In this document: positions 12,332-14,586 of the stretch, piece by piece
Numbering within the stretch: the stretch's first letter is position 1
Layout: every line of letters starts with the position of its first letter
NCBI RefSeq assembly: GCF_001507855.1
Contig: NZ_LGEN01000015.1
Location: 17,586-81,585, forward strand
Direction of reading: 5' to 3'
Length of the DNA: 64,000 nt
Origin: Halomonas sp. 54_146
Lineage (GTDB): Bacteria; Pseudomonadota; Gammaproteobacteria; Pseudomonadales; Halomonadaceae
Program-made: the position numbers and the translations under genes
Notes under the pieces: model-generated
What the model saw: only the letters and a program-made list of their open reading frames with translations
Databases searched by the model: none
What the model was told of the DNA's origin: nothing

Positions 12332-13183
12332 TTAACGATTTTTCAAACGGCGTGATGAATAATACCAGCCAGTGACAAGCCCCACGAGTAGCCCACCTAA
12401 ATGCGCCTCGTTGGCTACGTTGCCAAAACCAACGCTGCTGGCCATATCGGTCATGGTGAATACCATCCAGCCGAGCATAAATACCACCAGCATTTGCGGT
12501 ACAAAGAAACCGCTGTGCGGCACTCGGCGTGACATTAACCAAACGTGGGCAAGTAAGGCATAAACCACGCCGGACATGCCGCCAAACAGCACGGTGCCGG
12601 TCATATATTGAGCGATATTAGCACCAATGCCGGCCACAACCAGCAGCACTAGCATGGTTAAACTGCCCTGCAACGCTTCAATTTGGCGGCCGAAATACCA
12701 TACCCACATCAGGTTGAATATTAAATGCATCCAGCCAAAGTGCAGAAAGGCAGGCGATAGCAAGCGCCATATTTGACCTGAGGCAAGCGTTTGCGAAAGC
12801 GTGCCAAACACCAATTCGCCACCTGAAATGCCAATCGGCACGATGGTTAAAGCAACAATCAGCTGATCGCCAAACACGCCAATCAACGCAAACACGACTA
12901 GGCTAATGACAATCATGAGGGCTGTCACCGGCACCTGGCGAAGCGAGGCCAGTGATGAGGCCACATGCGGGGAACGCTTGGCTGAGTGTTGCAGCACCAT
13001 CGGCTCACCGCGCTCCCAGCGTTCAACCAATGCTTTAAGGTCATCGTGTTGGCGTGGGTCGGCCACCCATAGCAACTGCCCATCGGTTTCATCGGTAATG
13101 CGGTGACCAATACGGTGACGCCAAAGTGCTTTGCGCAGTTCGCTCGTATCCGCGTGATCGGGCAAAAGCATCACTGGATGCAT
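12332..13183 (-). CDS. rhomboid family intramembrane serine protease
   Basis: Rhomboid catalytic motif GGMSGVVYALLAH and C-terminal AHLGGLLVG; multi-TM. Confidence 0.93.
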   Translation of the reverse strand: MHPVMLLPDHADTSELRKALWRHRIGHRITDETDGQLLWVADPRQHDDLKALVERWERGEPMVLQHSAKRSPHVASSLASLRQVPVTALMIVISLVVFALIGVFGDQLIVALTIVPIGISGGELVFGTLSQTLASGQIWRLLSPAFLHFGWMHLIFNLMWVWYFGRQIEALQGSLTMLVLLVVAGIGANIAQYMTGTVLFGGMSGVVYALLAHVWLMSRRVPHSGFFVPQMLVVFMLGWMVFTMTDMASSVGFGNVANEAHLGGLLVGLVTGWYYSSRRLKNR

Positions 13184-13306
13184 ATCTTCCTCTCATCAAA
13201 GCGCTGGCGGCACGCTAGCCGCAGCGAGTGGGTAGTGAGTGCTCTTAATACAAACCGCTAATAATTAATACAAACCGCCAATAAAACAAACCGCCAAATA
13301 ACGCAC

Positions 13307-13334
13307 AAAAAAAACCGGCGGTGGGGACCGCCGG
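13307..13334 (-). terminator. Rho-independent terminator
   Basis: Perfect 8-bp stem (ccggcggt/accgccgg) with an 8-A tract on + strand, i.e. U-tract on minus transcript. Confidence 0.9.
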
Positions 13335-13415
13335 AGAATAAAAGCAAGGGATCATTCAAGGGAACACTTACTCAGATAGCCAGCAGCAGGGTTAGTTCAG
13401 ACGTTTTGAAAAAAA
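13307..13415 (-). ncRNA. putative sRNA A (paralogous to sRNA B at 17.7 kb); 5' end approximate
   Basis: 410-nt intergenic gap; minus strand contains TCTGAGTAAGT, TTCCCTTGAATGATCCCTTGCTT, then stem CCGGCGGT-CCCC-ACCGCCGG followed by eight U. Shares both motifs and terminator architecture with 17730-17857. Confidence 0.6.
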
Positions 13416-13477
13416 TATGTAATTTTATGTAAAATTAAAAGAAATTAATTTTTGAAGCCTTTTATTAACGTAATGAG

Positions 13478-13572
13478 CGAAGGCCAGACAAGGCGAAATT
13501 AGCTGAAAAAACGGAGTCTATGATTAATAAATGAGTATGTTGAGGCTAATTTCAACACAGTATGGGCAAGCG
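13478..13572. repeat. ERIC-like imperfect palindromic intergenic element
   Basis: Inverted arms including GAAATTAGC (13495-13503) and GCTAATTTC (13545-13553), with outer GCG..GGCC / GGGC..GCGC flanks. Confidence 0.5.
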
Positions 13573-13593
13573 CAATAGTTAATCAAAGGTTTC

Positions 13594-14586
13594 TTAGTCA
13601 AAGTCGATTTCCCAGGGCTTAGGCAGCGCCCGCTCTTCTTTCGGCACTTTAATCCACACAAAATGGTCGGCGTTTAATACCGCCTCACCACTCCACCGAT
13701 AAGCCACTAAGCGCCCATATTTCACCGCGCTGTAGTCAAGGCAGGCAATGTTACGGGTGGGCAGCGCAGGTATGCCTTCACACCAGTAATGACCAATAAA
13801 CAGCGGCGGCTGCTCTGGCCCGTAGTAGCTCAGTTTCTGGCATTCTTCATGGGTCAATGCGTGGGCTTCAAGATCACCCGGCAAGTTATCGGGCTGAAAC
13901 ACGACATCGCCCCACTGCTGGGGTGCCTCGGCCCAAAAATGGGCACGAAAGCTTTTGCGCGTAAAGCCGTCGCCGGAGTGTATCGCGATACCTTCAGGCA
14001 GCGAGATATGGGGGCCACGGGTTAAGCGATCTAAAATCCGAAACGCCTGGGTAGAGGGGTCTGTTGATTCCACCAGGAACTGTGTGTCCATGCAGCAATC
14101 AGGGCGGCGCTGCTTTAACTGTTCAATCAGCGTTGCGTCCCAGCAGGCATGCACTACACGAATGCCGTCTATCTCAAGGCATAGCGGAATCGTCTTAAAC
14201 CACGCCAGGGTATCTTCCCACTCGTTGGTGTAGTCGCGATACTGTTCCAAGGTGTCTTGAATAATACGGTTGTGGCGCGGCGTATGTTCACGCAGCCAGC
14301 GCTTGTGGCTGCCCGCAGGCGCGGGGTGGGTATACGCCAAGGCGTTATATTCGTGATTACCCATGACAATATACGCTTGGCCATGTTCGACCATTCGCCG
14401 GGCAATGGTCACCGCTAAGCGGATGCGTGGCCCACGATCTATCAAATCACCCAGGAAAATGACTTTTCGACGCGGGTGGCAATACACGCCTTTGCGCTGG
14501 TGATAACCGAGTTTTTCCAGCAGTGCCGCCAGCGTAGCGCCGCACCCATGGATATCACCAATCAGGTCGTACCCTTCCATGCTCAA
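13594..14586 (-). CDS. metallophosphoesterase (bis(5'-nucleosyl)-tetraphosphatase/PP2A-like)
   Basis: GDIHGC, GDLIDRGP, GNHEYN motifs. Confidence 0.92.
   Translation of the reverse strand: MSMEGYDLIGDIHGCGATLAALLEKLGYHQRKGVYCHPRRKVIFLGDLIDRGPRIRLAVTIARRMVEHGQAYIVMGNHEYNALAYTHPAPAGSHKRWLREHTPRHNRIIQDTLEQYRDYTNEWEDTLAWFKTIPLCLEIDGIRVVHACWDATLIEQLKQRRPDCCMDTQFLVESTDPSTQAFRILDRLTRGPHISLPEGIAIHSGDGFTRKSFRAHFWAEAPQQWGDVVFQPDNLPGDLEAHALTHEECQKLSYYGPEQPPLFIGHYWCEGIPALPTRNIACLDYSAVKYGRLVAYRWSGEAVLNADHFVWIKVPKEERALPKPWEIDFD

Follow-up and report, generated by a model that had tools for sequence, protein, structure and literature searches.

A conserved small RNA gene of the Halomonadaceae with a sigma-E-type promoter and predicted pairing to outer-membrane receptor mRNAs

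The stretch of 64,000 nucleotides from Halomonas sp. 54_146 that we analysed (the window) almost certainly carries the gene of a small RNA (sRNA) at 13307..13367 on the minus strand. Our reading as a whole, which we consider probable, is that this gene encodes a trans-acting sRNA of about 61 nt that would be transcribed by sigma-E, assisted by Hfq, and would block the Shine-Dalgarno (SD) regions of outer-membrane receptor genes. Promoter, RNA and terminator are conserved as one unit across the genomes of the genus and the family. Halomonadaceae, which are salt-loving bacteria, are used as industrial hosts, and a conserved sRNA whose promoter and both seeds are readable provides the family with an envelope-stress circuit open to direct test.

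Anatomy and conservation of the locus

The gene lies in a gap of 410 nt that separates the end of a phosphoesterase ORF (13594) from the start of a rhomboid ORF (13183). An earlier note on this DNA, made from its letters, had pointed to this gap, to elements on its minus strand, to C-rich motifs and to a perfect stem followed by T8, and all of these were found as claimed. The features of the locus are as follows.

13307..13367, minus strand: sRNA of about 61 nt, placed by conservation, by the alignment and promoter profile and by the fold; its 5' end (+/-2 nt) is inferred from where the -10 box lies and where conservation begins
13357..13367, minus strand: seed 1, GUGUUCCCUUG (complement CAAGGGAACAC), at the 5' end of the sRNA
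13344..13353, minus strand: seed 2, GAUCCCUUGC (complement GCAAGGGATC), conserved as seed 1 is
13307..13334, minus strand: intrinsic terminator with an 8-bp stem (CCGGCGGT/ACCGCCGG), loop CCCC and T8
13334-13315, minus strand: stem-loop of this terminator, CCGGCGGT-CCCC-ACCGCCGG, that is CCGGCGGUCCCCACCGCCGG, with a perfect 8-bp stem; T8 at 13314-13307
13372..13376, minus strand: -10 box TCTGA, sigma-E/AlgU type
13393..13398, minus strand: -35 box GAACTA, separated from the -10 box by 16 nt
13409..13444, minus strand: AT-rich, T-tract stretch upstream of the -35 box, UP-element-like (with an information peak at -51 to -47, counted from the 21-mer)
13594..14586, minus strand: upstream neighbour, calcineurin-like phosphoesterase (Metallophos)
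12332..13183, minus strand: downstream neighbour, rhomboid-family intramembrane protease

Read along the minus strand, the order is GAACTA, 16 nt, TCTGA, GTAA, GUGUUCCCUUGAAUGAUCCCUUGC (13367-13344), UUUUAUUCU, the terminator and U8. The double C-rich motif GUGUUCCCUUGAAUGAUCCCUUGC occupies the extreme 5' end of the predicted RNA, where the C-rich 21-mer TTCCCTTGAATGATCCCTTGC is found at 13364-13344 on the minus strand, and it gives the RNA two seed copies, UUCCCUUG and AUCCCUUG, which are followed by a U-rich linker and the terminator. The conserved block starts at about 13444-13422 and takes in the promoter. We place the start of transcription near 13367 because the conserved promoter boxes fit the AlgU consensus, the genome encodes an RpoE and an element of the same type stands upstream of rpoH (see below); the predicted RNA is therefore about 61 nt long and not about 100 nt, as had been proposed. 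On the same evidence TCTGAG is read as promoter and falls outside the RNA, and the segment TCTGAGTAAGT (13376-13366), which had been assigned to the transcript, carries in TCTGA the -10 box.

The 61-nt RNA has a predicted folding energy of -18.1 kcal/mol (z = -4.1), due chiefly to its terminator, and a 102-nt version gave a z of -1.9. Seed 1 has a mean unpaired probability of 0.67-0.89 over six variants, and UCCCUUGC of seed 2 is unpaired at 0.97-0.99 in five of the six. Relatives do not retain the 5' hairpin that the RNA of the window forms (GAAUGA/UUAUUC), and for this reason we claim no structured 5' domain. The predicted RNA thus combines a conserved, largely unpaired 5' seed with a rho-independent terminator and its U tail, as the class of sigma-E sRNAs does.

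The earlier note had named conservation among relatives as a check, and by blastn the region is present in every one of the 82 genomes of its genus, Vreelandella, and in 234 of 250 Halomonadaceae genomes, covering 20 of 24 genera. Of the 95 loci obtained by a blastn search with the whole region, or requested at its matches, 93 have the 21-mer unchanged and the other two differ by one substitution each. An exact 22-mer pattern occurs in at least 119 contigs from named genomes; among the matches listed, almost all are Halomonadaceae and one is labelled only 'Gammaproteobacteria bacterium'. Allowing at most one mismatch, the seed pattern was found in 12/12 genomes of the family and in 0/281 genomes of other families in the order. 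A covariance model run on 369 genomes of the class and 115 of the order gave, beyond the family, matches with E of 1e-3 to 1e-2, which we inspected and judged to be chance, and this model and the seed pattern scan revealed no convincing homologue outside Halomonadaceae. When relatives are aligned, the 24-nt seed block is essentially invariant and the linker and the terminator loop are variable; the terminator stem and T-run are retained, and the strong terminator first proposed is borne out. The length of the linker modulo 3 varies among relatives, so that no conserved ORF fits, and the earlier statement to this effect stands. The rhomboid gene lies downstream in the same place and orientation at 203 of 214 sRNA loci and the phosphoesterase lies upstream, likewise, at 210; we therefore regard these loci as orthologues.

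Some minor observations concern the surroundings and copy number of the gene. Directly 3' of the terminator (window 13245-13300) a 20-nt unit, TTAATACAAACCGC(C/T)AATAA, occurs three times in tandem. The approximately 100 bp just upstream of the sRNA promoter (window 13475-13574) are a dispersed intergenic repeat, of which 2.4 Mb of a congener contain three more copies at 72-74% identity. This congener (G071) has two copies of the sRNA (L036, L037), and the second may be silent, as its -35 box and most of its promoter are lost.

The promoter and its probable sigma factor

The sequence directly upstream of the sRNA in the window, GAACTA-N16-TCTGA, has the form expected for the promoter of a sigma-E sRNA, and the published AlgU consensus is GAACTT-N16/17-TCtgA (PMC10651043; PMC3819740). 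Among 154 distinct upstream regions, GAACT is at the -35 position in 132, TC[ATC][GA]A is at the -10 position in 145, and both boxes are at their fixed positions in 130, as compared with 1 of 30,800 shuffles. The profile of 167 distinct upstream regions, numbered relative to the 21-mer, has islands at GAACT (-34 to -30) and TCAGA/TCTGA (-12 to -8) and a T-tract at -51 to -47, and conservation is full from GTG onward. The window's genome encodes an RpoE that is clear from its match to NCBIfam equivalog TIGR02939 (305.9 bits against a cut-off of 236), and an ORF resembling an anti-sigma factor follows its gene. In the congener a GGAACTT-N16-TCTAT element stands upstream of rpoH, which in E. coli belongs to the classical targets of sigma-E. 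A strict consensus search of 2.4 Mb of the congener gave six candidates, rpoH and a META-domain lipoprotein among them. In the same 2.4 Mb, a sigma-E matrix trained on the sRNA promoters, which is too specific, did not recover the known sigma-E genes, and the region upstream of the congener's algU contains no clear motif. Taken together, the boxes and the sigma factor make it very probable that the sRNA is under sigma-E control.

Two other explanations of the locus turn on this promoter. One is that the gene is a genuine sRNA gene served by another sigma factor or expressed constitutively, with GAACT/TCTGA as the site of a regulator or a look-alike. ECF sigma factors other than sigma-E use AAC-type -35 boxes too, and the failure of the trained matrix to recover a sigma-E regulon speaks for this explanation as well; we give it only a small probability, because boxes and spacing fit the AlgU consensus exactly (PMC10651043) and are retained together in most of the distinct upstream regions, the same type of element occurs at rpoH, sibling genes of the sRNA use the classical TCAAA variant with GGAACT, and the sole housekeeping-type promoter found nearby is on the opposite strand. 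The other explanation takes the RNA for a 3'-UTR-derived or read-through product of the phosphoesterase gene, with a terminator conserved by chance. The near-constant presence of that gene upstream in the same orientation would suit it; however, a conserved promoter with an AT-rich upstream stretch lies between the phosphoesterase and the RNA, the strongest conservation begins just past the -10 box and not at the end of the ORF, and siblings with the same seed adjoin other genes, which together leave it a very slight probability. The conserved promoter and terminator of its own thus favour an independent sRNA gene, which is what the earlier note had supposed.

Candidate targets and proposed action

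In the mechanism that we propose, envelope stress would lead sigma-E (AlgU/RpoE) to transcribe the approximately 61-nt RNA, which would most likely work with Hfq and pair through one of its two 5' seeds to SD regions that contain CAAGGGA. Such pairing would block ribosome binding and lower the synthesis of outer-membrane proteins, in the first place that of a BtuB-like TonB-dependent receptor.

Candidate targets were scanned in one congener, G071, for which 2.4 of 3.1 Mb and 2,222 ORFs were scored, and whose Hfq has 89% identity to that of E. coli. Among the best perfect complements in the start regions were one of 11 nt at the SD of the flagellar gene flgG (CAAGGGAACAC at -13), GCAAGGGATC at -14 of a BtuB-like TonB receptor gene, and GCAAGGGAT at -15 of a siderophore-type TonB receptor gene. 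Over all genes of this congener the enrichment is weak, with 16 genes having at least 9 nt of complementarity against a shuffle mean of 7.6, a number reached by 5 of 100 shuffles, and enrichment of the outer-membrane class, as defined by simple signal-peptide rules, was not significant. The btuB candidate was chosen by inspecting the ranked list of complements.

Conservation of the sites was then judged by the presence of the pattern CAAGGGAWC-N2-6-ATG in 31 genomes of the genus, its positions being compared with btuB and flgG. The pattern is at the btuB start in 11 of the 31 genomes (G001, G003, G008, G025, G026, G028, G029, G054, G059, G068 and G071). A relaxed pattern, CAAGGGA-N4-9-ATG, applied to six genomes, added btuB in at least four more, the window's genome included, and was absent from btuB in G041. 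Overall, CAAGGGA is found at the btuB start in at least 15 of the 31 genomes, which makes SD sequestration a plausible mode of action, and the complementarity of the CCCUUG segments to an SD-like CAAGGG, noted earlier, has in btuB a recurrent site at a start codon. This site alternates between GGGATC and GGGAAC, the complements of seed 2 and seed 1, and its spacer to the ATG is not conserved. In the congener the predicted pairing of sRNA and btuB amounts to -25.1 kcal/mol, a value reached by 4 of 500 shuffled seeds.

A shifting site with a variable spacer is what targeting by the sRNA would predict, and SD conservation is a partial alternative. CAAGGGA can itself serve as an SD, and CAAGGGAWC-N-ATG is in general commoner than its reversed control (128 vs 35), so that part of the btuB result could be due to SD conservation alone; with the relaxed pattern, CAAGGGA also recurs at the starts of other genes in the six genomes. 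It is therefore conceivable, and in our judgement somewhat unlikely, that the RNA acts mainly as a sponge or on non-receptor targets such as flgG or the leader of the sigma-E operon, the btuB site being ordinary SD conservation. The perfect complement at flgG argues for this, with CAAGGGAAC at the flgG start in 5 of 31 genomes, as does CAAGGGAC(G/A)CTATG in the algU leader uORF of the window's genome and the congener, of which identical strings occur in four more genomes. Against it, the btuB site is the most recurrent, its flanks are not conserved and it matches the complement of either seed, whereas the leader site pairs over only 7 bp, and feedback of the sRNA on sigma-E through the SD of the algU leader is accordingly only a lead. 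The BtuB-like TonB receptor is thus the best-supported candidate target, and we hold the chances to be evenly balanced that the sRNA does repress it. As to the leader, a short ORF (MLLAVNAHWLGLIGMELGARRTSLRSV in the window's genome) lies about 70-150 bp upstream of algU on the minus strand (L238), with the SD CAAGGGACGCT and a TGA stop directly before the algU ATG; it is reminiscent of E. coli rseD.

Known systems, sibling genes and a phage copy

The enterobacterial sRNAs RybB and MicA have sigma-E promoters and repress outer-membrane proteins (PMC8595263). The present sRNA resembles them in its sigma-E-type promoter, its shortness, its conserved 5' seed, its rho-independent terminator and the predicted repression of outer-membrane proteins at the ribosome binding site; it differs in showing no sequence similarity to them by Rfam, in having two repeated C-rich seeds and not one, in its predicted TonB receptor targets and in its restriction to Halomonadaceae. 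A further likeness is to ErsA of Pseudomonas aeruginosa, an envelope-stress sRNA from a related order with outer-membrane targets and a link to AlgU. ErsA has a different gene neighbourhood, and the covariance model and the seed pattern scan found no homologue of the present RNA outside the family. SabS of Acinetobacter is an sRNA that belongs directly to the regulon of an ECF sigma factor, under another sigma factor and another promoter (-35 GTCAAC, -10 CGTT) (PMC12153292).

The Rfam scan proposed earlier brought no family up to its gathering score at any position of the window. The best sub-threshold matches, suhB/mmgR (RF00519; 21.5 bits vs a gathering score of 41) and ncS16 (RF02866; 19.3 bits vs 48), share with the present RNA a C-rich segment before a GC-rich terminator, a weak likeness in which the match is mainly to a generic terminator, and we rejected both. 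The RybB, MicA and Spot 42 families are absent among matches to E 10, and the 61-nt RNA has neither an Rfam match of the CsrB/RsmY type nor a GGA motif, of which RNAs of that type carry several in stem loops; the earlier note had recognised it as neither CsrB/RsmY nor Spot 42. The sequence was not found in the literature searched, which contained no paper on a native Halomonadaceae sRNA of such a kind. The RNA would belong to a known kind, the sigma-E-dependent trans-acting sRNAs, of which RybB, MicA and MicL are members, and its sequence family appears to be new to Rfam and to the literature searched; it extends a pattern in which the non-coding arm of sigma-E is run by sRNAs of lineage-specific sequence and the same layout. 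Its unusual points are the double seed, the set of siblings and the phage copy.

To call the transcript an orphan, as the earlier note does, is right only in part: other genera have sibling genes that share its seed. Further loci bearing the seed, or a sequence close to it, were found in Kushneria (L229), Salinicola (L245), Halotalea (L246) and a further genus (L242, L247, L250). Their seeds read GUUCCCUUG and then AUGAUCCCU or AUGAUUCUU, each locus has its own terminator, and several have GGAACT...TCAAA/TCTGA/TCTCA promoters with similar spacing. The bodies of the siblings differ and most keep the seed and the sigma-E-like promoter, which suggests that selection holds those two parts.

A Salinicola phage or prophage contig (42,735 bp) also carries the seed, with a different body and a terminator of its own (L382 533-551 / L249 ~1501-1552), between an integrase gene and the genes of endolysin, spanin and terminase, and without the sigma-E promoter boxes. 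This copy may be the phage's own mimic of the host sRNA, and it offers a testable case of a phage borrowing the targeting part of a host sRNA. The other six of seven pattern matches on viral contigs have no terminator after the seed and look like chance. A wider reading, which we think rather unlikely to hold in full, would join these points: a family-wide envelope-stress sRNA with two interchangeable SD-blocking seeds and with siblings of differing bodies, targets that drift between the complements of the seeds, feedback on sigma-E through the rseD-like leader, and uptake of the seed by a temperate Salinicola phage, whose copy would, if this were true, act on the host's receptor mRNAs in the course of infection or in lysogeny. 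At two of the sibling loci, in Halotalea (L246) and in the further genus (L250), the seed stands behind a 5' hairpin, GGGAAG..CAAUCUU(U)CCC, and sigma-E-like boxes lie upstream.
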